DNA of 64,000 nt from Plastoroseomonas hellenica (GCF_018129085.1 NZ_JAAGBB010000023.1:1-64000); one strand, 5' to 3'; positions 38,567 to 52,287 are shown, numbered from the stretch's first letter. Notes: generated from the letters alone by a model not told the origin. Made by a program: numbers and translations.

Positions 38567-38621
38567 ATAAAAGCCCCTGCGAGCCGGAAGAGCCGGCGGC
38601 GTGGCATCGCGGGGATCGGGT

Positions 38622-40784
38622 ATGACGGGATTGGGCGCGGAACGGCCGGCAGGGGCGCTGCTGGCGGCACTGGTTTTCGCTGGTCTGGCCATGCCGTCCA
38701 AAGCCCAGGAAGCGGCGGCCCCCGCGGCGGGCGGCGTCACCCTGCCGCAGATCGAGGTCTCGGGCGCCGCGGCCACCGCGACCGCGCCGGTCGCGGGCTA
38801 TGTCGCGCCGGTGGCCGCCAGCGGCACCAAGACCGACACGCCGCTGATCGAGACCCCGCAATCCATCACCGTCATCACCCGCGACCGCATCGACGCCCAG
38901 GCCGTGCGCAGCGTCGAGGAGGCGCTGCGCTACACGCCGGGCGTGACGGCTGAGCTCTCCGGCTTCGATCCGCGCTTCGACGGCGTCCGCATCCGCGGCT
39001 TCGACGCGCGGCCGAGCCAGTATCTGGACGGGCTCCGGCTGCTGCGCCAGTTCGGCCCGACCTCCATCGAGCAATATGGGCTGGAGCGCATCGAGGTGGT
39101 GCGCGGCCCCGCCTCCGTCCTCTATGGCCAGACCGTGCCGGGCGGGTTGATCGACCTGGTCAGCAAGCGCCCGACCCGCACGCCCTTCGGGGAGGTGAAC
39201 CTCTCGGCTGGCAGCCACAACCGCTTCCAGGGGGCCTTCGACCTTGGCGGGCCGGCGAATGCCGACGGCACCGTGCTCTACCGCATGACCGGCCTGATCC
39301 GGGACAGCGATACCCAGATCGACCATGTCAGGGACAACCGGTACTTCATCGCGCCCGCCGTCACCTGGCAGCCGACCGAGGACACCTCGCTGACCCTGCT
39401 GGCGCGGTACCAATACGATCAGACCACCTCGCCGATCGGCCTGCCGGCGATCGGCACGCTGCTGCCCAACCGCAACGGCAGCATCGCCCGCAGCCGCTAT
39501 GCCGGCGAGCCCGGCTTCAACCGGTCGGACGTCACGCTGTTCAGCATCGGCTGGGATTTCCGCCACCGCTTCGACGATGTCTGGAGCATCCGGCAGAATG
39601 CGCGCTACCTGAACAACCGCGTCGCCTATGAGACCATGTACGGCTCGGCGCTCTCGGCCGACCAGGCCACGCTGTCGCGCGGCGCCCTCCTGCAGCGCGA
39701 GAGCTCCGACACCGTCAATATCGACACCACGGCGCAGGCGCGCTTCGCGACCGGGCCGGTGTCGCACACCCTGCTGCTCGGCGCCGACTACCGGCAGTAC
39801 TGGGGCAACTACCAGAGCTGGTTCGGGCGCGCGTCCTCGCTGAACCTGTTCAGCCCCAACTACGGCGCCGTCATCGCGGATCCGCGCGCGGCGCCGGTGA
39901 TCGCGACCAACCGCGACGACCGGCTGGTGCAATTCGGCCTCTACGCGCAGGACCAGATCCGCTTCGGCAATTGGCTGCTGACCCTCGGCGCGCGGCAGGA
40001 CTGGGCGCAGACCATCCAGACCAGCCAGCTCACCGGCGCGCGCAGCAGTGCCAATGACAGCGCCGTCACCGGCCGCGTGGCGCTGATGTACCTCTTCCCC
40101 TTCGGCCTCTCGCCCTATGTCTCTTACGCCACCTCCTTCGATCCGGTGGTGGGTGCCGCGGCGCCGCAGCGGGGCGGCGGCGGCTTCGAGCCGACGCGGG
40201 GCGAGCAATATGAGGCGGGCCTGCGCTACCAGCCGCCGGGCTCGAACAGCCTGATCTCCGCCGCCATCTTCGACCTGCGGCAGACCAATGTCTCGACGCG
40301 CGACCCGACCTATACCGCCTTCCAGGTGCAGACCGGCGAGATCCGCGTGCGCGGCCTGGAGCTGGAGGCGCTGGCCAGCCTGGCCGAGGGGCTGAACCTC
40401 ATCGCCTCCTACACCTATCTGGACGGCGAGATCACCCGGGCGAATGACGGCACGCGCGGCAACCGCCCGGCGCTGGTGCCGCAGCATACCGCGAGCCTCT
40501 GGGGAGAATACCGCTTTCAGGAAGGCAGCCGGCTGCAGGGCCTCAGCGTCGGGGCAGGCGTGCGCCATGTGGGTGCGCTCTATGGCGACAATGCCAATCT
40601 CTACCGATCCCCCTCGGTGACGCTGGCGGATGCCTCGATCGGCTATCAGATCGGCCGCTATAGGCTGACGCTGAACGCCTCGAACATCTTCAACAAGGAG
40701 TATGTCGCCTCCTGCACCGGCGCCTTCTACTGCTACTACGGCACCGGCCGGACGGTGATCGGCAGCATCGCCTACCGCTGGTAG
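38622..40784 (+). CDS. TonB-dependent siderophore receptor
   Basis: A 720-residue outer-membrane receptor. Signal peptide (residues 1-~28, ending SKAQ), TonB-box-like LPQIEVSG, plug domain with IETPQSITVITRDRIDAQ, then EALRYTPGVTAE and YGLERIEVVRGPASVLYGQ, and a 22-strand barrel ending in aromatic IAYRW, the usual assembly signal. It follows the FhuA/FpvA/ferrichrome-type pattern and imports a ferric siderophore with TonB energy. The Fur box upstream supports iron control. The start at 38622 was preferred over a GTG at 38601 because GGGGAT precedes it. No siderophore transporter or synthesis genes are adjacent. Confidence 0.9.
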   Translation: MTGLGAERPAGALLAALVFAGLAMPSKAQEAAAPAAGGVTLPQIEVSGAAATATAPVAGYVAPVAASGTKTDTPLIETPQSITVITRDRIDAQAVRSVEEALRYTPGVTAELSGFDPRFDGVRIRGFDARPSQYLDGLRLLRQFGPTSIEQYGLERIEVVRGPASVLYGQTVPGGLIDLVSKRPTRTPFGEVNLSAGSHNRFQGAFDLGGPANADGTVLYRMTGLIRDSDTQIDHVRDNRYFIAPAVTWQPTEDTSLTLLARYQYDQTTSPIGLPAIGTLLPNRNGSIARSRYAGEPGFNRSDVTLFSIGWDFRHRFDDVWSIRQNARYLNNRVAYETMYGSALSADQATLSRGALLQRESSDTVNIDTTAQARFATGPVSHTLLLGADYRQYWGNYQSWFGRASSLNLFSPNYGAVIADPRAAPVIATNRDDRLVQFGLYAQDQIRFGNWLLTLGARQDWAQTIQTSQLTGARSSANDSAVTGRVALMYLFPFGLSPYVSYATSFDPVVGAAAPQRGGGGFEPTRGEQYEAGLRYQPPGSNSLISAAIFDLRQTNVSTRDPTYTAFQVQTGEIRVRGLELEALASLAEGLNLIASYTYLDGEITRANDGTRGNRPALVPQHTASLWGEYRFQEGSRLQGLSVGAGVRHVGALYGDNANLYRSPSVTLADASIGYQIGRYRLTLNASNIFNKEYVASCTGAFYCYYGTGRTVIGSIAYRW

Positions 40785-41174: not shown

Positions 41175-42137
41175 CTACTCCACCCGGATCCCGGCGTCGC
41201 GGATCAGCGTCCCCATCGCCGCATGGTCCCGTGCCAGCGCCGCCGCGAAGGCGTCGGGCGTATTGCCGACCACCTCATAGCCCAGCCCCTCCAGCCGCTC
41301 CCGCACGGCCGGCACCGCCAGCGTCTCGCGCAGCGCCGCGTTCAGCCGCGCGACCGCCGCGGGCGGCGTGCCGCCCGGTGCCAGGAATGCGCCCCAGGTG
41401 AAGAAGGCATAGCCGGGCACGCCCGCCTCGGCGATCGTCGGCGCGTCGGGGAAGGTGTCGATCCGCGCCGGGCCGGCGGTGCCGAGCAGGCGGAGCTGGC
41501 CGCTGCGGATGAAGGCGTTCGGGGTCGGCAGGCCGAAGAAGCCGAAGGGCACCTCGCCGGCGGTGACCGCGGTCAGCGCCGGCGTCGCGCCGCGGTAGGA
41601 GATGTGGTTCATCCGGATGCCCGCCATGCGCAGGAACATCTCCATGGCGATGTGCTGCGGGCTGCCGGCGCCGCCGGAGGCATAGTCGATCGCGCCCGGG
41701 CGCGCGCGCGCTGCCTCGATCAGCCCGGCGATGTCGGTGGCGGGGGCGGAGGGATGCGCGACCAGCGCCCAGCGGATGCGCACGATCTGCCCGATCGGCG
41801 CCAGGTCCCTCAACGGGTCGTAGCCGGCATTCGGGTCGAGGTTGGGCAGCATCGTCAGCACCGCGTCATTGACCGCGAGCAGCGTGTACCCGTCCGGCGT
41901 GGCGCGTGCCCCGGCGCGCATCCCGATCATGCCGGAGGCCCCGGTCTGGTTCTCGATCAGCAGGCGCTGGCCGAGCGTCTCGCTCATCCGGTCGGCCACG
42001 ATCCGGACCACGACATCGACCGCGCTGCCGGCCGCGAGCGGCATGATCACGCGGATCGGGCGATCCGGATAGCCGGTCTGGGCCGCGGCGCCGCCGGCGC
42101 ATGCGGCCATCATCAGCGCGAGAAGCCATCGGCGCAT
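41175..42137 (-). CDS. Bug/TctC family periplasmic binding protein
   Basis: A 320-residue receptor with a signal peptide (MRRWLLALMMAACAGGAAAQ) and Bug blocks RPIRVIMPLAAGSAVDVVVR, LLIENQTGASGMIG, a DGYTLLA turn and NHISYRGATPALTAV. The start at 42137 has AAGGGGGA upstream. Ligand unknown. It stands alone on the minus strand; a palindromic repeat lies 40 nt upstream. Confidence 0.88.
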   Translation of the reverse strand: MRRWLLALMMAACAGGAAAQTGYPDRPIRVIMPLAAGSAVDVVVRIVADRMSETLGQRLLIENQTGASGMIGMRAGARATPDGYTLLAVNDAVLTMLPNLDPNAGYDPLRDLAPIGQIVRIRWALVAHPSAPATDIAGLIEAARARPGAIDYASGGAGSPQHIAMEMFLRMAGIRMNHISYRGATPALTAVTAGEVPFGFFGLPTPNAFIRSGQLRLLGTAGPARIDTFPDAPTIAEAGVPGYAFFTWGAFLAPGGTPPAAVARLNAALRETLAVPAVRERLEGLGYEVVGNTPDAFAAALARDHAAMGTLIRDAGIRVE

Positions 42138-42177
42138 CGCGTCCCCCTTGCGCGTCAATCGCGCGATTCAACAAAGG

Positions 42178-42710: not shown

Positions 42711-43628
42711 TCAGCCGCGCCCGAGCGGGGGCCGGCGCATGCGGCGCACCGCCTCGGCGAGCTGCGCCGCGAACAAGGCCGCCAGCACGCCGCCCGCGCC
42801 CTGCTCGGGCGTCAGCGCGGCGAAGGTGAAGCGGATGGGGGGCGCGAAGCGCCGCAGCACGATGCCCGGGCGCGGCTGATGCGCGGCGAAAGGGTCGATC
42901 AGCGCGACGCCCAGCCCTTCGCCGACATAGGCGAGGGCGGTCGCGGAGTAGAGCACTTCCAGCCGGATCCGCGGCCGCACCGCCTGGGTCGCGAACATGG
43001 CCTCGATCGCCTGGCGCAGCGGGCTGGCGCCGCCAGGCAGGATGAAGTCGGCACCCTGCAGGTCGGACGGCGTCACCGCCCGCCGCCGCGCCAGCGGATG
43101 GTCGGCCGGGCAGGCGCAGACGATATCGGTCGCCGGCAGCGGCGCGATGGCGACCCCGGGCAAGGGTCCCGGCGGGGTGGCGAGGCCGAGATCGGTCTGC
43201 CGCGCCGCCACCGCCTGGCAGATCTCGGCCGAGGAGCCGGTGTCGACGATGACCGACACATCCGGCCGCGCGGCCAGGAAGCGGCGCATGACCGGCCCGA
43301 GGAAGCCCGCCGCCAGCGCCGGCATGGCCGCGACATGCAGCCGGCCGGCGCGGAATTCGCGGAGCGCCCGGGCCGCGTCGCGCAGGCGCTCCGCCGAGGC
43401 CTGATGCCGGTCGACCTCGTGCAGCAGCAGGCGCGCCGCCTCGTTGGGCAGCAGTGCGCGGCCGCGGCGTTCGAACAGCGCCATGCCGAGCTCGGCCTCG
43501 AACTCCGCGATGAGGCGGCTGACCGCCGGCTGGGAGCGGCCGAGCTGCTCCGCCGCCGCGGTGACGGTCCCGGTCCGCATCACCGTGCGAAAGGCCTGGA
43601 GCTGCCGGGGGTTGAGCAGCCGGTCCAT
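42711..43628 (-). CDS. LysR family regulator, divergent from the DUF4392/opine-dehydrogenase operon
   Basis: A 305-residue LysR regulator (RQLQAFRTVMRTGTVTAAAE, with LGRSQPAVSRLIAEFEAELG). Its effector domain resembles those of opine/nopaline-type LysR activators such as NocR/OccR only in general form. It diverges from the operon at 43728 with a 99-nt gap holding ATAAAATGCATATGAG, a candidate LysR site. It probably controls that operon. Confidence 0.87.
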   Translation of the reverse strand: MDRLLNPRQLQAFRTVMRTGTVTAAAEQLGRSQPAVSRLIAEFEAELGMALFERRGRALLPNEAARLLLHEVDRHQASAERLRDAARALREFRAGRLHVAAMPALAAGFLGPVMRRFLAARPDVSVIVDTGSSAEICQAVAARQTDLGLATPPGPLPGVAIAPLPATDIVCACPADHPLARRRAVTPSDLQGADFILPGGASPLRQAIEAMFATQAVRPRIRLEVLYSATALAYVGEGLGVALIDPFAAHQPRPGIVLRRFAPPIRFTFAALTPEQGAGGVLAALFAAQLAEAVRRMRRPPLGRG

Positions 43629-43727
43629 GCGCGGGCTTATCCATAAAATGCATATGAGCAGCCGGCGAACCTATTGGACGCGCAGCACGTGGCGCAAGGA
43701 TCATGCGGCGACTGCATGAGGAACCGC

Positions 43728-44750
43728 ATGCCCGACATCATCGGCGACGCCGTGGACCGCCTGATCACCGTGGAGCTGCGCAACCGCGCCATGAACCACG
43801 GCATCATCCCCGGCATCTACCAGGCTGCGCGCGCGGAGGGCGGCGGCCGCCCGCTGACCGCCCGCGCGGCGGAGGCGCTGGTCGCCGCGGTCCGCCCCGG
43901 CGATCCCGTGCTGCTGGTCTGCGGCGCCGGCTACCCGCCGGAGATGCCGAACGGCGAAAGCGACGGCCCACCCGGCGTCGCCGTGCTCGCCCGCGCCCTG
44001 TTCTGGGGGTTGAAGGCGGTGCCGGTCTTCGTGCAGGAGGCGCATCACGCCCCGCCGGTCGTGGCGTCCTCCCAGGCGGCGGGCATCATGGTGCGCGACT
44101 GGGACCTGGTGCGGGAGCGACGCTTCGGCGCCGCGCGCTTCGATGCGCCGACCGACCAGGCGGCGGTCCGCGACTGGGCGCGCGAGCTGATCGCGCGGCT
44201 GCGCCCGAAGGCGATCATCGCCGTCGAGCGGCTGGGGCCGAACGAGCGCGGCGTTGTGCAGTATTCCACCGGCTACCGGCCGGAGACGGCGGTCGACCTC
44301 GCGCCGCTCTTCGCGGCCTGCGCCGAGGCCGGGGTGCTCAGCATCGGCATCGGCGACAACGGCAACGAGATCGGCTTCGGGCGGATCTTCGACTTCCTCG
44401 CCGATTTCCACCCCTATGGCCGCAACCGCTCGCCGCACGCGCATGGCGGCGCCTGCACCACGGTCGCGACCGATATCCTGCTGCCGACCTCCGTCTCCAA
44501 CTGGGGCTGCATCGGGCTCGCGGCGGTGCTCGCCTTCCTGCTGCGCGATCCGGAGGTGCTGCACACGCCGGAGATGGAAGGCCGGATCATCCGCGCCTGC
44601 CTCGACGCCGGTGGGTGGGAGGCGCGCTACTGCACGACGCGCTTCCTGGTGGACGGCATGGTCGGCGAGACCTCCATGTCCATGGTCCAGATCCTGGCCG
44701 AGATGGTGCGGCTTAACCTCGCCGCCCCCGATCGCGGGCCGGCGCATTGA
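43728..44750 (+). CDS. DUF4392 / D-glutamate cyclase-like protein
   Basis: A 340-residue protein of the DUF4392 family, which forms the C-terminal domain of D-glutamate cyclase (DGLUCY). Recognisable blocks: VLLVCGAGYPPEMPNGESDG, ALFWGLKAVPVFV, IIAVERLGPNERGVVQY, the glycine/acidic SIGIGDNGNEIGFG with a likely metal or substrate site, and CTTVATDILLPTSVSNWGC. The family's known activity is reversible cyclisation of D-glutamate to 5-oxo-D-proline; whether this stand-alone version does so is unknown. GAGGAA precedes the start; an ATG 12 nt upstream is possible. First gene of a four-gene operon with two Bug receptors and an opine dehydrogenase. Confidence 0.8.
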   Translation: MPDIIGDAVDRLITVELRNRAMNHGIIPGIYQAARAEGGGRPLTARAAEALVAAVRPGDPVLLVCGAGYPPEMPNGESDGPPGVAVLARALFWGLKAVPVFVQEAHHAPPVVASSQAAGIMVRDWDLVRERRFGAARFDAPTDQAAVRDWARELIARLRPKAIIAVERLGPNERGVVQYSTGYRPETAVDLAPLFAACAEAGVLSIGIGDNGNEIGFGRIFDFLADFHPYGRNRSPHAHGGACTTVATDILLPTSVSNWGCIGLAAVLAFLLRDPEVLHTPEMEGRIIRACLDAGGWEARYCTTRFLVDGMVGETSMSMVQILAEMVRLNLAAPDRGPAH

Positions 44751-44764
44751 CGGGCAGGGGGACG

Positions 44765-45736
44765 ATGCGCATCCCGCGGCGCGGACTGCTCGCCCTGGCC
44801 GCTGGGCTGCCAGCGACGGCGGCGCGGGCCCAGGCCTTTCCGACGCGGCCGGTCACCATCATCGTCCCCTATGCGGCCGGCGGCGGCGCCGACATCACGG
44901 CGCGGCTGCTGGCGCAGCGCATGACACCGCGCCTCGGCCAGCCGGTGGTGGTCGAGAACCGCGCTGGCGCCAACGGCGTGCTGGGTGCGGAGGCGGTGGC
45001 GCGTGCCGCCCCCGACGGCCATACGCTCGGCATGGTGGTCAGCTCGCACGTCATCAACAAGGCGGTGATGCCGGCGCTGCCCTTCGACCCCGTCGCCGAT
45101 TTCGCCCCGGTGATGCTGGCCGCGCGCACGGAGCTCGCGCTGGTCGCGGCACCGGCCCCCGGCGTGACGAGCCTGGCGGACCTCATCGCGCGGATCCGCG
45201 CCCGACCCGGCGACTACGCCTATGCCTCGCCCGGTGCGGGCAGCAACGTGCATGTCTTCCTCGAATGGTTCGCGCGCCGCGCCGGGCTGCAGATGCTGCA
45301 TGTGCCCTATCGCGGCAGCGCCGCCGCCCATGCCGACCTGATCGCCGGCCGCGTCGCCTTCACCCTCGACACCTATGCCGCGGTGCGCCCGCATGTGGAG
45401 GCGGGGCGCCTTGCACTGCTCGCCTTCGGCGGACCGCAGCGCTACGCGGGCCGGCAGGAGGTGCCGACCATCGCGGAGGCGGCCGGCATCCCGGGCTATG
45501 CGGCCTTCTCCTGGTCCGCGCTGCTGGCGCCGCGTGGCACGCCGGCCGGTGTGGTGGCGCGCCTGAACGCGGGGGCCGCGCGCGCCCTGGGGGAGGCCGA
45601 GGTGCGCGACCGCCTCGCGACACTCGGCGCGGAGGCTGCCGGCGGCCCGCCGGAGGAGCTGCGCGCCTTGATGGAAGGCGAGGCGCTGCAATTCGGCGCC
45701 CTGGTTCGCGAGCTGGGGATCCGCAGCGATGGCTGA
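44765..45736 (+). CDS. Bug/TctC family periplasmic binding protein (operon copy 1)
   Basis: A 323-residue receptor with a twin-arginine-like signal (RIPRRGLLALAAGLPATAARA) and Bug blocks RPVTIIVPYAAGGGADITAR, PVVVENRAGANGVLGAE, a DGHTLGM turn and LHVPYRGSAAAHADL. It follows the DUF4392 gene after 14 nt; AGGGGG precedes the start. Likely binds the operon's substrate, perhaps an amino-acid-derived carboxylate. Confidence 0.88.
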   Translation: MRIPRRGLLALAAGLPATAARAQAFPTRPVTIIVPYAAGGGADITARLLAQRMTPRLGQPVVVENRAGANGVLGAEAVARAAPDGHTLGMVVSSHVINKAVMPALPFDPVADFAPVMLAARTELALVAAPAPGVTSLADLIARIRARPGDYAYASPGAGSNVHVFLEWFARRAGLQMLHVPYRGSAAAHADLIAGRVAFTLDTYAAVRPHVEAGRLALLAFGGPQRYAGRQEVPTIAEAAGIPGYAAFSWSALLAPRGTPAGVVARLNAGAARALGEAEVRDRLATLGAEAAGGPPEELRALMEGEALQFGALVRELGIRSDG

Positions 45737-46811
45737 GCTTATATCGAGCCTCAATCGCCGGGCGCGGGCCATCCGGCCCGCTTGGCTTCGCCGGACTACC
45801 GGCGGCTCCCATTCGGGCGCTCGGCACGAGTCAAATGCTCGTGCCGTTGGTATTGCCCGCCGTGTCCTGCTGGGCACCGCCGCCGCGCTCGCGGGCGGCC
45901 GCGCCCGGGCGCAATCCTACCCCGATCGTCCGCTGCGCCTGATCGTGCCCTGGGCGCCGGGCGGCAGCACCGATGTGCTGGCGCGGCTGGTCGCGGTACC
46001 GGTGGGGGAGGCGCTGGGCCAGCCCGTCATCGTCGACAACCGTCCGGGCGCCAGCGGCACCATCGGCCATGCCTCGGTCGCGCGCGCCGCACCCGATGGC
46101 CACACCGTGCTGATGGCGACCAACAGCACCTTCGCGATCGCGCCCTACCTGTTGCCGTCGCTGCCCTATGCGCATGACGAGGCCTTCGCGCCGGTCGCCC
46201 TGCTGGCCGAGACGCCGCTGGTGCTGGCGGTGAAGCGCGGCGGGCCGGCGAGCCTCGCCGCGCTTCTGGCCGAAGCGCGGGCGCGGCCGGAGGCGCTGAC
46301 CTTCGCCAGTGGCGGCATCGGCGTGACCAGCCACATGGCCGCCGAGCTGCTGATGGCGCTGGCCGGCATTTCGCTGACCCATGTGCCCTATCGCGGCGGT
46401 GGGCCGGCGGCGCAGGCGTTGGCGGCGGGGGAGGTGACCATGGCCTTCCTCGATCCGACGGTCGCCAAGCCGTTGGCCGATGGCGGGCAGGTCGGCATGA
46501 TCGGCACCACCGGGTCGCGCCGCTTCCCGAGCCTGCCCGAGCTGCCGACCATCGAGGAGACCGGCTTGCCCCGCTACGTCACCATCACCTCCTACGGCCT
46601 CTTCGTGCCGCGGGCGACGCCGGCGCCGATCATCGCCCGAATTGCCGGCGCCGCCATGGCGGTGCTCGACCGGCCGGGCTTCCGGGAAGACATGGCCGGG
46701 CGCGGCATCTCGGTCCGCGCCGAGGGCGCGGAGGCGCTCGCCGCCCATGTGCGCGAGGAGAATGCGCGCTGGAGCGAGGTCATCCGCACTCGCCACATCA
46801 GGATGCATTGA
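45729..46811 (+). CDS. Bug/TctC family periplasmic binding protein (operon copy 2)
   Basis: A second receptor with blocks RPLRLIVPWAPGGSTDVLAR, PVIVDNRPGASGTIGHAS, a DGHTVLM turn and THVPYRGGGPAAQAL. The only in-frame start is at 45729, overlapping copy 1's stop by 8 nt and giving 360 residues. That leaves an unusual ~38-residue stretch before the export signal (VGIARRVLLGTAAALAGGRARA), and it contains the perfect hairpin at 45822-45846. The annotated start may therefore be wrong, or the N-terminus may have been altered by insertion. The two tandem receptors are clearly diverged, not recent copies. Confidence 0.85.
   Translation: MAELISSLNRRARAIRPAWLRRTTGGSHSGARHESNARAVGIARRVLLGTAAALAGGRARAQSYPDRPLRLIVPWAPGGSTDVLARLVAVPVGEALGQPVIVDNRPGASGTIGHASVARAAPDGHTVLMATNSTFAIAPYLLPSLPYAHDEAFAPVALLAETPLVLAVKRGGPASLAALLAEARARPEALTFASGGIGVTSHMAAELLMALAGISLTHVPYRGGGPAAQALAAGEVTMAFLDPTVAKPLADGGQVGMIGTTGSRRFPSLPELPTIEETGLPRYVTITSYGLFVPRATPAPIIARIAGAAMAVLDRPGFREDMAGRGISVRAEGAEALAAHVREENARWSEVIRTRHIRMH
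45822..45846. repeat. Perfect 9-bp hairpin inside the N-terminal extension of Bug copy 2
   Basis: CGGCACGAG (45822-45830), loop TCAAATG, CTCGTGCCG (45838-45846). It is unusual inside a coding region and sits just before the true export signal. It could be an intercistronic attenuator, an mRNA-stability element or part of an inserted repeat. Confidence 0.5.
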
Positions 46812-46814
46812 GCC

Positions 46815-47855
46815 ATGCAGGTCGCAGTTCTCGGCAGCGGTCCGGTCGGGCGCGCCACCGCCGGCGTGCTCGCCGGACAAGGCCATGCGGTGCGCCTGGT
46901 CCGGCCGCGCGGCGCGGCGCCCGAACGCGCGCTGCCGCTGCGCTTCCAGGGCGCGCTGGAGGCCAGCATCGTGATCCCCTTCGCCGAGGGCATGGACGCG
47001 ATTGGTGATGCGGAAGCGGTGGTCCTCGCGATACCCGCAACCGCCTATGGCGATGTGCTGCCGGCCCTCGTGCGGCTGGCGCGGCCGGGGACGAGCATCG
47101 TCTTTGGGGGCGCGCTCTCGCTCGCGCCGCTCTGGCTGGCGCGGCGGGTGGCGGCGGGTGTTCCGGTCATCGCCTGGGGCACGACGCTCGCCACCGCCTC
47201 GCTTCTCGATGGCGATGCGGTGCGCGTCGGCACCATCCGCGCGCGCTTCGACATCGCGCCGCTGCCCCCGGCCGATCCCGCGGCGGCGCTCGCGCTCTGC
47301 GGCGCGCTGTTCGGCGACCGCTTCGACCTCGCGGCCGGTGGCGTGCTGGCGAGCGCGCTCTCCAACGTCAACCCGATCGCCCATGCCGTGCAGGTGATGG
47401 GCAACCTGTCCCGCATCGACCGGCAGGAGGCCTGGCCGCTCTTTGGCTGCTTCACCGAGAGCGTCGCCGCGATCTGCACCGCCCTGGATGCCGAGCGGAT
47501 GGCGATCGCGGCCGCCTTCGGCGTCCCGGTGCGCTCGATCGAGACGCATTACCACCTCTCCTACCATGTGCCGCTCGGGCCGCTCGCGGTGACGGTGGCG
47601 GCGATGGAGGCGCGTGGCCTCGGCCCCAACGGCCCGACCACGCTGCGCCACCGCTATGTCGAGGAGGACATGCCCTTCGGCCTCGCCTTCCTCGAAGCGC
47701 TGGGCCGCGCGGCTGACGTGGCGACGCCGGCGCTGTCGGGGGCGCTCACCCTGCTCGGGGCCGCTGTGAGGCAGGATCTGCGGGCGCCGAACTGGCTGGT
47801 CGGCGCGCTCGGACTGGACCGGGCCGACCCCGCGGCGCTCGGCATCCAGGGGTGA
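46815..47855 (+). CDS. NAD(P)-dependent opine dehydrogenase (octopine/nopaline family)
   Basis: A 346-residue dehydrogenase. Rossmann motif VAVLGSGPVGRATAGVLA at the N-terminus, and the C-terminal octopine/nopaline-type domain with SNVNPIAHAVQVMGN and the catalytic-histidine block IETHYHLSYHVPLG. The family makes or oxidises N-carboxyalkyl amino acids (opines) from an amino acid and a keto acid. Last gene of the DUF4392-Bug-Bug operon, 3 nt after the preceding stop. In that setting it may break down an imported opine or related imino acid and feed glutamate-like products to the DUF4392 enzyme (inference). Confidence 0.85.
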   Translation: MQVAVLGSGPVGRATAGVLAGQGHAVRLVRPRGAAPERALPLRFQGALEASIVIPFAEGMDAIGDAEAVVLAIPATAYGDVLPALVRLARPGTSIVFGGALSLAPLWLARRVAAGVPVIAWGTTLATASLLDGDAVRVGTIRARFDIAPLPPADPAAALALCGALFGDRFDLAAGGVLASALSNVNPIAHAVQVMGNLSRIDRQEAWPLFGCFTESVAAICTALDAERMAIAAAFGVPVRSIETHYHLSYHVPLGPLAVTVAAMEARGLGPNGPTTLRHRYVEEDMPFGLAFLEALGRAADVATPALSGALTLLGAAVRQDLRAPNWLVGALGLDRADPAALGIQG

Positions 47856-48006: not shown

Positions 48007-48630
48007 ATGACCCGGATCGAGATCATCGGCATCCCGATCTCCAACTATGTGCGGGTGATCCGCATGGCCTGCGAGGAGAAGGGGATCGCCTATGCGTTGA
48101 CGCCGGCCCTGCCGCAGACGCCGGAGGTGCTGGCCATCCACCCCTTCGGGAAGATCCCCGTGCTGCGGCACGGCGATGTCGAGCTCTGCGAGAGCAAGGC
48201 GATCGCGACCTATCTCGACAAGGTCTTCCCCGGGAACCCGTTGCTGCCGGCCGAGCCGCTGCCGGCGGCGCGGGTGGAGCAATGGGTGTCGATGACCAAC
48301 ACGGTGATCGACCGGACCATGATCCGCGAATACGTGCTCAGCTACGTCTTTCCCAAGGGGACGGGCGGCGAGCCTGATCGCCGGATCATCGACGCGGCGC
48401 TCCCTGCGCTCCAGCGCCAGGTCGCGGTGCTCGATCAGGCCGTTGCGGCGACGGGGTATCTGGTGGGTGGCCGCTTCACCTTCGCCGACATCAATGTGAT
48501 GCCGATCCTGGCCGGGATTCAGCGATATCCCGAAGGGCGCCAGGCGATGGCGGATGCCAGGGCGCTGACCGCCTATTTCCAGCGGCACGCCCAACGTCCC
48601 AGCTTCCTGGCGACGGTGCCGCCGGCATGA
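48007..48630 (+). CDS. Glutathione S-transferase family protein
   Basis: A 207-residue GST. Thioredoxin-fold N-domain with GIPISNYVRVIRMACEEKGI (candidate catalytic Ser) and the glutathione site GKIPVLRHGDVELCESKAIA, then an all-helical C-domain including FTFADINVMPIL. Conjugates or reduces with glutathione; substrate unknown. Its stop overlaps the sigma-factor start by 4 nt (ATGA), so it is cotranscribed with the ECF sigma gene. Confidence 0.88.
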   Translation: MTRIEIIGIPISNYVRVIRMACEEKGIAYALTPALPQTPEVLAIHPFGKIPVLRHGDVELCESKAIATYLDKVFPGNPLLPAEPLPAARVEQWVSMTNTVIDRTMIREYVLSYVFPKGTGGEPDRRIIDAALPALQRQVAVLDQAVAATGYLVGGRFTFADINVMPILAGIQRYPEGRQAMADARALTAYFQRHAQRPSFLATVPPA

Positions 48631-49580
48631 GCCGCGGCGGCGGACCGCTGAGGGGAAGGATGCAGCCGCGACCCGATCCGACGGGGATCTTCGACCTGCG
48701 CTACAAGGCCTTCCTGGAAACAGTGTCGCATCTGCGCACGCGTCTGCACCACTATTGCGCGCGCATGACGGGCTCGGCGCTCGACGGCGAGGACGCGATG
48801 CAGGAAGCGCTCTTCGAAGCCTATCGGAAGATCGAGGCGCTGGAGGATCCAGGCGCGCTCCGCGCCTGGCTGTTCCGCATCGCCCATAACCGCTGCATCG
48901 ACATGCTGCGGAAGCGTGCCGCGCGCGAGCGTGCAGAGATGGCCTATGCGGAGGAGGATGTCGCGCTGCCGGTCGAGCCGGCGGGCGCCGGCCACGCCAT
49001 CGAGCGGCTGGTCGTCCACCTGCCGCCCAAGGAGCGCGCTTCCGTGCTGCTCAAGGATGTGTTCGATCATTCGCTCGAGGAGATCGCGGACCTCGTTGGC
49101 TCGACGGCGGGGGGCGTCAAGGCGGCGCTGAGCCGCGGCCGCGCGAAGCTGGCCGCGCTGCCGGCGGAGCCAGCCGCCGTTCCCGAAATCCGGCGTGATC
49201 CTGATCTGGAGAAGCTGCTCCGCCACTATGTCGCGCTGTTCAACCGCCGCGACTGGGACGGCGTCAGGGCCTTGATCAGCGCCGACGCGCAGTTGCGGGT
49301 CGCGGATTGCTTCAAGGGCCGGCTGGCGGACTCGCCCTATTTCTCCGAATACGCGAAGCTGGGGATGGCCTGGCGGCTGGCGGTCGGCGCGATCGACGGC
49401 GAGCCCGTCGTGATCGTGCTCAAGCCGGGGCGGGATGGCTGGGAACCGGCCTACCCGGTGCGCATCCAGGCACGTGACGGGATCATCGACGGGATCAGCG
49501 ACTATTATCCCTGTCCCTGGATGATGCCCGCGGCGGATATCATCCTCCTCGCGGAGCCTGAGCCCGAGAGGTCGCCATGA
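48627..49580 (+). CDS. ECF RNA polymerase sigma factor with C-terminal NTF2-like domain
   Basis: A 317-residue sigma-70 family protein. Region 2 (~residues 35-100) includes YCARMTGSALDGEDAMQEAL, then ALRAWLFRIAHNRCIDMLRK. Region 4 (~125-170) includes LPPKERASVLLKDVFDHSLE, then EIADLVGSTAGGVKAALSRG. After residue ~190 a SnoaL/NTF2-like domain (LLRHYVALFNRRDWDGVRAL...) replaces an anti-sigma factor; in such ECF groups the tail controls activity. No anti-sigma gene is adjacent. Start taken at 48627 (coupled to GST); an ATG at 48660 after GAGGGGAAGG is a good alternative. Downstream gene overlaps by 4 nt. Confidence 0.88.
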   Translation: MSRGGGPLRGRMQPRPDPTGIFDLRYKAFLETVSHLRTRLHHYCARMTGSALDGEDAMQEALFEAYRKIEALEDPGALRAWLFRIAHNRCIDMLRKRAARERAEMAYAEEDVALPVEPAGAGHAIERLVVHLPPKERASVLLKDVFDHSLEEIADLVGSTAGGVKAALSRGRAKLAALPAEPAAVPEIRRDPDLEKLLRHYVALFNRRDWDGVRALISADAQLRVADCFKGRLADSPYFSEYAKLGMAWRLAVGAIDGEPVVIVLKPGRDGWEPAYPVRIQARDGIIDGISDYYPCPWMMPAADIILLAEPEPERSP

Positions 49581-50101
49581 CCGAGCCCGATTCCTTCGCC
49601 GCTGCCCTTATCAGCGAGGGGCCGCATGCGGCGCTGCCGCCCGAGAGCCGGATCTTCGCCCCTTTCATCGGCAGCTGGGACCTGGTCGTGTCCTGGTTCG
49701 ACGCCAGCGGGGCGTTGAGCCGCCGCCAGGATGGCGAATGGCACTTCGCCTGGATCCTCGAGGGGCGGGCGATCCAGGATGTCTGGATCGTGCCGCCGCG
49801 GCGTGCGCGCGTCGCGGCATCGGATCTCTACGAATACGGCACGAGCCTGCGCTTCTTCGACCCGGCGATCGATGCCTGGCAATCGACCTGGATCGGGCCG
49901 ATGCACCGCGTGGTGCGGAGCTTCATCGCGCACCGCGCCGGGGACCAGGTCGTGCTGGAGACCGTGGAAGGCACGTCGCCGCGCATGCGCTGGTCCTTCG
50001 CCGACATCGCTGCCGACGCCTTCACCTGGCGCAACGAGGCCTGGAAGGATGGCGCCTGGCGGCTGCAGCAGGCCTTCGAAGCCCGGCGCCGCCGCGCCTG
50101 A
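49577..50101 (+). CDS. Hypothetical protein, DUF1579-like beta-barrel
   Basis: A 174-residue soluble protein with a predicted beta-barrel of the lipocalin/DUF1579 type. Segments FIGSWDLVVSWFDASG, GEWHFAWILEGRAIQDVWIV and the repeated aromatic strand ends suggest a small-ligand pocket. Function unknown. Start overlaps the sigma-factor stop by 4 nt, so it is the third gene of the GST-sigma operon and a likely target or partner of that regulator. Confidence 0.7.
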   Translation: MTEPDSFAAALISEGPHAALPPESRIFAPFIGSWDLVVSWFDASGALSRRQDGEWHFAWILEGRAIQDVWIVPPRRARVAASDLYEYGTSLRFFDPAIDAWQSTWIGPMHRVVRSFIAHRAGDQVVLETVEGTSPRMRWSFADIAADAFTWRNEAWKDGAWRLQQAFEARRRRA

Positions 50102-51756: not shown

Positions 51757-52287
51757 ATGTATCTCGACGTTCCCTTCGTCACCCAGCTTGGTATCGGCGG
51801 CAACGCCAACCTGAACGACCCGACGGGCTGCTGGTACGCCAGCGCCTGCATGATCGGGTTCTCCTATGAGGCTGGGCCGCGGCTCGGCGTGCCCGAGCTC
51901 TATTCCCGTCCGATCGTGCAGCCGGATGGCAGCCATGCCATCGGGCACTGGAACATCACCGGCGGCTGGCTCCCGGTCTTCAAGCGCAACGAGCACCTGA
52001 CCGAGCTCGCCGGCGGCATGCCCGCGACCGAGGTAGCGCTCGCGGCGGCGTTGAAGCGCTTCGGGCCCTTCTTCTTCGGCTGGCTCAAGACCGCCAATGG
52101 CAGCACCTATGGCCATGCCTCGGTGATCATCGGCGTCCGCGGCGGCAACGTGATCTACCACGACCCGGAGAACGCACCGCGCAGCGAGGCGGCGATCGCG
52201 ACCTTCACCGGGCGCCTCGCCCCGGGCTGGCCGCTGCTCCGCCGCGACGCACCGGAACTCAGCTACATGGTGCGCCAGATCGCCTGA
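51757..52287 (+). CDS. Papain-like cysteine peptidase (C70/AvrRpt2-like)
   Basis: A 176-residue papain-fold peptidase. Catalytic Cys in NDPTGCWYASACMIGFSYEA, His in TYGHASVIIGV, Asp/Asn in VIYHDPENAP, matching the C70 group that includes the plant-pathogen effector AvrRpt2. No signal peptide. Unlike AvrRpt2 it has no N-terminal processing extension. It may be a secreted or cytoplasmic processing protease; no substrate or secretion genes are adjacent. A -10-like GATAAT lies upstream near 51713. Confidence 0.78.
   Translation: MYLDVPFVTQLGIGGNANLNDPTGCWYASACMIGFSYEAGPRLGVPELYSRPIVQPDGSHAIGHWNITGGWLPVFKRNEHLTELAGGMPATEVALAAALKRFGPFFFGWLKTANGSTYGHASVIIGVRGGNVIYHDPENAPRSEAAIATFTGRLAPGWPLLRRDAPELSYMVRQIA

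Follow-up and report, generated by a model that had tools for sequence, protein, structure and literature searches.

The DUF4392 domain is known from the mouse D-glutamate cyclase DGLUCY, which is composed of DUF1445 and DUF4392, the latter forming one half of the enzyme (PMC5339696). It also occurs alone in the archaeal protein TON_0340, which has acidic metal ligands and is described as an Mn-dependent phosphatase whose natural substrate is unknown (PMC5132392). Among opine dehydrogenases (ODH), the enzyme of structure 1bg6, N-(1-D-carboxylethyl)-L-norvaline dehydrogenase, comes from Arthrobacter 1C, which grows on an opine (PMC4575208), and in the succinamopine region of the plasmid pTiEU6 the genes odh, LysR, asparaginase and HyuA/B lie together, HyuA/B being proposed to open opine lactams (PMC6733357). 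Here we describe a putative operon that brings DUF4392 and ODH together in a stretch of 64,000 nucleotides from Plastoroseomonas hellenica (GCF_018129085.1, NZ_JAAGBB010000023.1:1-64000), referred to as the window. Open reading frame listing and Pfam searches confirmed five adjoining genes, a divergent LysR gene followed by tightly spaced, co-directional genes for a DUF4392 protein, two Bug receptors (Bug1 and Bug2) and an ODH, as an earlier note on this DNA had described them. All of these protein families were already known, whereas DUF4392 linked to a receptor-ODH module was not; neither such a link nor, as the note had also stated, any pathway with this gene set was found described in the literature searched, which covered few subscription journals.

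The window operon joins two gene sets that are kept apart in other bacteria. Module A consists of LysR, DUF4392 and Bug1. Relatives sharing 61-68% identity with the window DUF4392 occur in 28 further genomes of Alpha- and Betaproteobacteria and also on five plasmids (of Sinorhizobium, Sagittula, Roseinatronobacter, Microvirga and Devosia), nearly always adjoining a LysR gene and then a Bug gene, in some cases with TctB and TctA too; a TRAP system takes the place of Bug in eight module A loci. The receptor directly after DUF4392 in these relatives is 44-55% identical to Bug1. The pSymA-type LysR/DUF4392/TctCBA/RidA locus of S. meliloti (L041) resembles the window in having module A with an orthologous receptor (51%) and DUF4392 (65%), but differs in having its own TctB, TctA and RidA and no ODH nearby. 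Upstream of this locus are genes for hydantoinase/oxoprolinase A and B, an aminotransferase, kdgD and an aldehyde dehydrogenase, and RidA lies downstream.

Module B consists of Bug2 and ODH. In a maximum-likelihood tree, the window ODH was placed in a clade with 100/100 support (clade A) together with the ODHs of Pigmentiphaga, Hydrogenophaga, Advenella and Verticiella, and those genomes all have module A elsewhere. Judging from the first matches, the ODHs of other Acetobacteraceae had been expected as nearest relatives, which the tree ruled out by this betaproteobacterial placement. A Bug gene lies directly upstream of the ODH in 17 of 17 clade A loci examined, six of them without this DUF4392, and the encoded receptor is 42-51% identical to Bug2 and at most 37% identical to Bug1. 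Relatives of module B adjoin an L-asparaginase gene, the Advenella module has genes for a DHDPS-family protein and an aldehyde dehydrogenase as neighbours, and a second ODH gene in genome G204 is found beside hydantoinase/oxoprolinase A and B (HyuA/HyuB).

When 100 receptors were placed in a tree, Bug1 grouped with 22 receptors labelled as DUF4392-adjacent and three more at that position that the automatic label had missed (support 100/99), and Bug2 grouped with 17 ODH-adjacent receptors (98/90). Each receptor groups with its own module, therefore the window operon is a fusion of two modules. The earlier suggestion that two diverged receptors serve two ligands is supported, since Bug1 and Bug2 (38% identical) belong to separate conserved modules. 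Each half of the arrangement is found in many other places, which indicates more than chance.

Co-occurrence of the two enzymes was examined in 268 genomes of the family of Pigmentiphaga. The DUF4392 subfamily was present in 11 of these genomes, ODH clade A in 17 and both in 10, so that clade A was found in 10/11 genomes with DUF4392 versus 7/257 without (Fisher p = 5e-13). With Pigmentiphaga collapsed to one, the p value was 4e-5; in neither value is shared ancestry fully corrected for. In four Stappia genomes and in Sagittula P11, a LysR/TRAP/ODH operon adjoins a LysR/DUF4392/TRAP operon; Roseinatronobacter has both TRAP-type modules on two plasmids, and the TRAP/ODH operon of Pelagibius (G212) is on a different contig from its DUF4392. 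The enzyme pair stays while the transporter class changes. Counting Stappia and Sagittula as a single event leaves a modest statistic for DUF4392-ODH adjacency taken by itself, therefore the case rests on co-occurrence and receptor phylogeny. Sagittula sp. MA-2 (L179, 8268-10701) has an ODH/TRAP locus near-identical to that of Sagittula P11; there, genes for lumazine synthase and flavin reductase stand where DUF4392 and its receptor, both missing from this locus, would be.

LysR boxes usually have the form T-N11-A. Module A relatives (loci L046-L073 and L040-L042) carry, some 100 bp ahead of the start of DUF4392, a two-part element, CATAACATT-N3-TTAT followed 28-29 bp downstream by AATTCGATT, which is conserved between Alpha- and Betaproteobacteria and whose first half has this form. 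An exact 8-mer was common to 17 of 24 upstream regions versus at most 6 in shuffles, and loci outside the matrix (L062, L066, L070 and L071) carry the element too. A weaker copy precedes the ODH operons of Stappia, with the same spacing, and one ODH operon in L125; the LysRs of the two Stappia operons share 33% identity. The element was not found ahead of Bug2-ODH in betaproteobacteria. Because the match in the window is poor, we did not use the element as evidence for the window itself.

We read the locus, with a probability of about one half, as a two-module operon for the uptake and breakdown of small opine-like amino-acid compounds in a soil-type bacterium. The uptake-plus-catabolism role proposed earlier is supported. 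Two uptake-plus-enzyme modules would be controlled by one divergent LysR gene, and the substrates may be amino acids N-substituted by a keto-acid residue, possibly together with their lactams. Bug1 and Bug2 would bind two related ligands and deliver them to a tripartite tricarboxylate transporter (TTT) encoded elsewhere, ODH with NAD(P)+ would oxidise the secondary amine to yield an amino acid and a 2-oxo acid, and DUF4392, with an acidic two-metal site, might ready the compound or handle the product, for instance by ring opening or closing or by hydrolysis.

The Ti plasmids add to the context for these substrates. They carry a related ODH, 34-35% identical to that of the window and distinct from the T-DNA nopaline synthase, within the noc operon noxB-2Fe2S-noxA-arginase-odh-ocd. 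Like the nopaline (noc) and succinamopine (sac) catabolic regions, the window operon has a LysR regulator, a solute importer and an ODH-family gene, and relatives of the window modules bring asparaginase and hydantoinase/oxoprolinase pairs, as pTiEU6 does. Unlike those regions, the operon has TTT receptors instead of an ABC transporter, lacks a flavin opine dehydrogenase gene and contains DUF4392. Because the same partner genes recur, the best guess is that the substrates are opine-like compounds, which may contain an asparagine or glutamate moiety, together with the corresponding lactams. For the lactam/glutamate conversion proposed in the earlier note, the lactam part is retained only by virtue of genomic context, namely the hydantoinase/oxoprolinase genes beside some relatives, and the D-glutamate cyclase part is not supported, as described below.

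Several observations weigh against the two-module opine operon. Each module recurs in the genomes compared, but the exact four-gene order that the note had proposed to look for was found nowhere else among them; it was present in 0/397 Acetobacteraceae-family genomes, of which one other has the close DUF4392 subfamily, with its ODH 167 kb away. In the co-occurrence sample, ODH clade A is present in seven genomes that lack this DUF4392, DUF4392 is present in one Pigmentiphaga that lacks ODH, and no ODH at all was detected in 9 of the 28 genomes with DUF4392 relatives. The window has only a degenerate form of the upstream element, a weak site that ranks 10 within the window. The flavin opine dehydrogenase genes noxA/noxB/noxC (nox/oox) are not among the genes at 41-52 kb, and asparaginase and hydantoinase genes are not in the window operon itself. 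The role of odh on Ti plasmids has also not been clarified (PMC6733357).

These exceptions could mean that two functionally unrelated uptake modules became adjacent by chance and that the co-occurrence mirrors soil genomes rich in orphan Bug receptors, which we consider possible, although not probable. Each module occurs without the other, Bugs are numerous in Acetobacteraceae and Alcaligenaceae, and the betaproteobacterial Bug2-ODH has its own LysR. Chance adjacency is, however, difficult to reconcile with a co-occurrence that persists after the main genus is collapsed (p = 4e-5), with the independent juxtaposition of the two enzymes with different transporters in Stappia and Sagittula, and with the related operators ahead of the Stappia ODH operon.

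The window DUF4392 protein matches PF14336 with 156.2 bits (cut-off 27.9). Its AlphaFold model (pLDDT 83) has TON_0340 of Thermococcus as best match, far above the next, with Z 31.5 and a root mean square deviation of 2.2 Å over 262 residues; RecJ/GdpP-like fold matches (Z 9-10) were set aside as too general for function. The two proteins have the same fold and an acidic metal site that is intact in the window protein, in which E77, D79, D210, E214 and D309 align to E59, D61, D157, E161 and D246 of TON_0340, and E167 was matched to E115 by position and by its invariance in 17 sequences. They differ in that their identity is 24%, that the window protein has longer N- and mid-regions, and that the phosphatase activity reported for TON_0340 is weak. 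A proposal that is doubtful at this stage is that DUF4392 depends on metal to break down opines or opine lactams, by ring opening or hydrolysis, and feeds a dedicated NAD-dependent opine dehydrogenase.

The pathway of the earlier note, in which a D-amino-acid or 5-oxoproline compound is imported, DUF4392 acts as D-glutamate cyclase and ODH cleaves an opine, appears unlikely. The window protein does share its domain family with the C-terminal domain of mouse and human DGLUCY, DUF4392 being half of the mouse cyclase (PMC5339696), and the DUF4392 locus of S. meliloti has hydantoinase/oxoprolinase genes upstream. Unlike DGLUCY, however, the window protein has no DUF1445 domain: the Pfam profile search detected PF14336 only, and DUF1445 (PF07286) was not found anywhere in the genome. 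Which domain of DGLUCY performs the cyclisation is not settled in the literature consulted, and the one stand-alone DUF4392 homologue studied biochemically, from an archaeon, is reported as an Mn phosphatase (PMC5132392).

The window ODH matches Octopine_DH with 98.5 bits (cut-off 30), with weak matches to Rossmann families at its N-terminus. The matches of its AlphaFold model (pLDDT 92) are headed by 1bg6, followed by octopine, yersinopine, staphylopine and pseudopaline dehydrogenases. By sequence as well as by fold, 1bg6 is the closest solved structure, in agreement with the opine-type dehydrogenase recognised earlier. H190, R280 and D285 align with His202, Arg292 and Asp297 of 1bg6, of which we take His202 and Asp297 to be the catalytic residues, and are invariant in 16 sequences. 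The two enzymes differ in that their identity is ~25% and in that no receptor gene is reported alongside the Arthrobacter enzyme in the literature consulted. ODH could instead be an oxidoreductase of another small acid, as ketopantoate-reductase-like and mandelate-dehydrogenase-like enzymes have the same fold; these gave lower scores, and the PF02317 match well above its cut-off, the invariance of the three aligned residues and top fold matches that are all opine dehydrogenases make this quite unlikely. Synthetic operation of ODH, with the opine product serving to scavenge metals or to balance redox state, is very improbable: the staphylopine, yersinopine and pseudopaline dehydrogenases are among its fold relatives and the window encodes a TonB-dependent receptor (38601-40784), but both sequence and fold are nearer to the soil enzyme 1bg6, no exporter gene was noticed in the operon, no nicotianamine-synthase-like gene was found in the operon or its direct neighbours (the rest of the genome was not searched), and the importer receptors and the asparaginase and oxoprolinase neighbours favour breakdown.

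If DUF4392 does take part in opine or opine-lactam breakdown, the operon would define an opine pathway that is tied to a transporter and independent of Ti plasmids, and stand-alone DUF4392, a widespread orphan domain, would for the first time be placed in a pathway. In humans the family is represented by one half of DGLUCY. Two questions can be tested together, the job of stand-alone DUF4392 enzymes and the job of odh in the opine-catabolic regions of Ti plasmids. Owing to the conserved receptor-ODH and receptor-DUF4392 pairs, ligand screens with purified receptors offer a direct route to the substrates.

Table 1. Genes and other features of the operon region, in window coordinates
Feature	Coordinates	Strand	Evidence or remark
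LysR-family regulator (module A)	42711-43628	-	Pfam PF00126/PF03466; 38-45% identity to LysRs flanking DUF4392 in relatives
Divergent promoter/operator region	43629-43727		Degenerate counterpart of module A operator, candidate near 43640
DUF4392/GLUCM-like_C metal-site enzyme (module A)	43728-44750	+	PF14336, E 1.7e-45
Bug1, TctC-type solute receptor (module A)	44765-45736	+	PF03401, E 2.9e-58
Bug2, TctC-type solute receptor (module B)	45729-46811	+	PF03401, E 3.9e-57; true start uncertain
Joint between modules, with hairpin	45737-45860		Perfect 9-bp hairpin at 45822-45846
ODH, opine-dehydrogenase-family enzyme (module B)	46815-47855	+	PF02317 Octopine_DH, E 4.8e-28

The divergent LysR and DUF4392 genes are separated by 99 bp, the DUF4392 and Bug1 genes by 14 bp and the Bug2 and ODH genes by 3 bp, and the Bug1 and Bug2 genes overlap by 8 bp (ATGGCTGA). 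A promoter scan detected nothing. The ATG start of DUF4392 is backed by an N-terminus conserved among relatives, and an alternative upstream start, TTG 44747, is possible for Bug1. Both receptors exceed the PF03401 cut-off and have signal-like N-termini, as judged from the translations by eye. Because the sole usual start codon of Bug2, ATG 45729, is located ~48 codons ahead of its signal peptide and a hairpin lies in that stretch, the start of Bug2 and cotranscription across the module joint are uncertain. The hairpin, CGGCACGAG-TCAAATG-CTCGTGCCG, lies inside the N-terminal extension of Bug2, occurs in one copy in the window and could be a terminator or an insertion scar; a pattern count against shuffles gave no excess of terminator-like patterns over expectation. 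TctA and TctB are absent from the operon in the open reading frame listing, and a complete TTT system is thus not encoded there. The P. hellenica genome (7.28 Mb in 161 contigs) has one ODH gene, two DUF4392 genes and eight TctA genes; the TctA genes all lie outside the operon, one of them on the same contig at 94989-96254.

The second DUF4392 gene of this genome (L001/L112, G000:C2:94522-95448) encodes a protein ~34% identical to the first; it is preceded by a gene for a ~450-aa protein without a Pfam match at 1e-5 and followed by a Bug gene. A third Bug gene of the window, at 41175-42158 on the minus strand just past LysR, grouped weakly (80/87) in the receptor tree with receptors beside a different DUF4392 subfamily, including the one on G000:C2. 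Diverged DUF4392 genes in tandem or near-tandem, from pairs up to three, were seen in seven loci (L042, L056, L105, L108, L115, L116 and L118), several of them on symbiosis plasmids with genes for amino-acid ABC transporters, an NAD(P)-dependent oxidoreductase and an aldehyde dehydrogenase, which suggests heteromeric or two-step DUF4392 enzymes. On another plasmid (L119), an operon combines DUF4392 with UbiD, UbiX, an Asp/Glu racemase family gene and a histidinol-phosphate-type aminotransferase gene. Downstream of the operon, the window encodes a Sigma-70 region 2/4 protein (ECF-like; 48627-50101, plus strand), whose gene has a 4-bp overlap with that of a 174-aa protein without a Pfam match, and a protein with a Peptidase_C70 domain (AvrRpt2-like papain fold; 51757-52287, plus strand).
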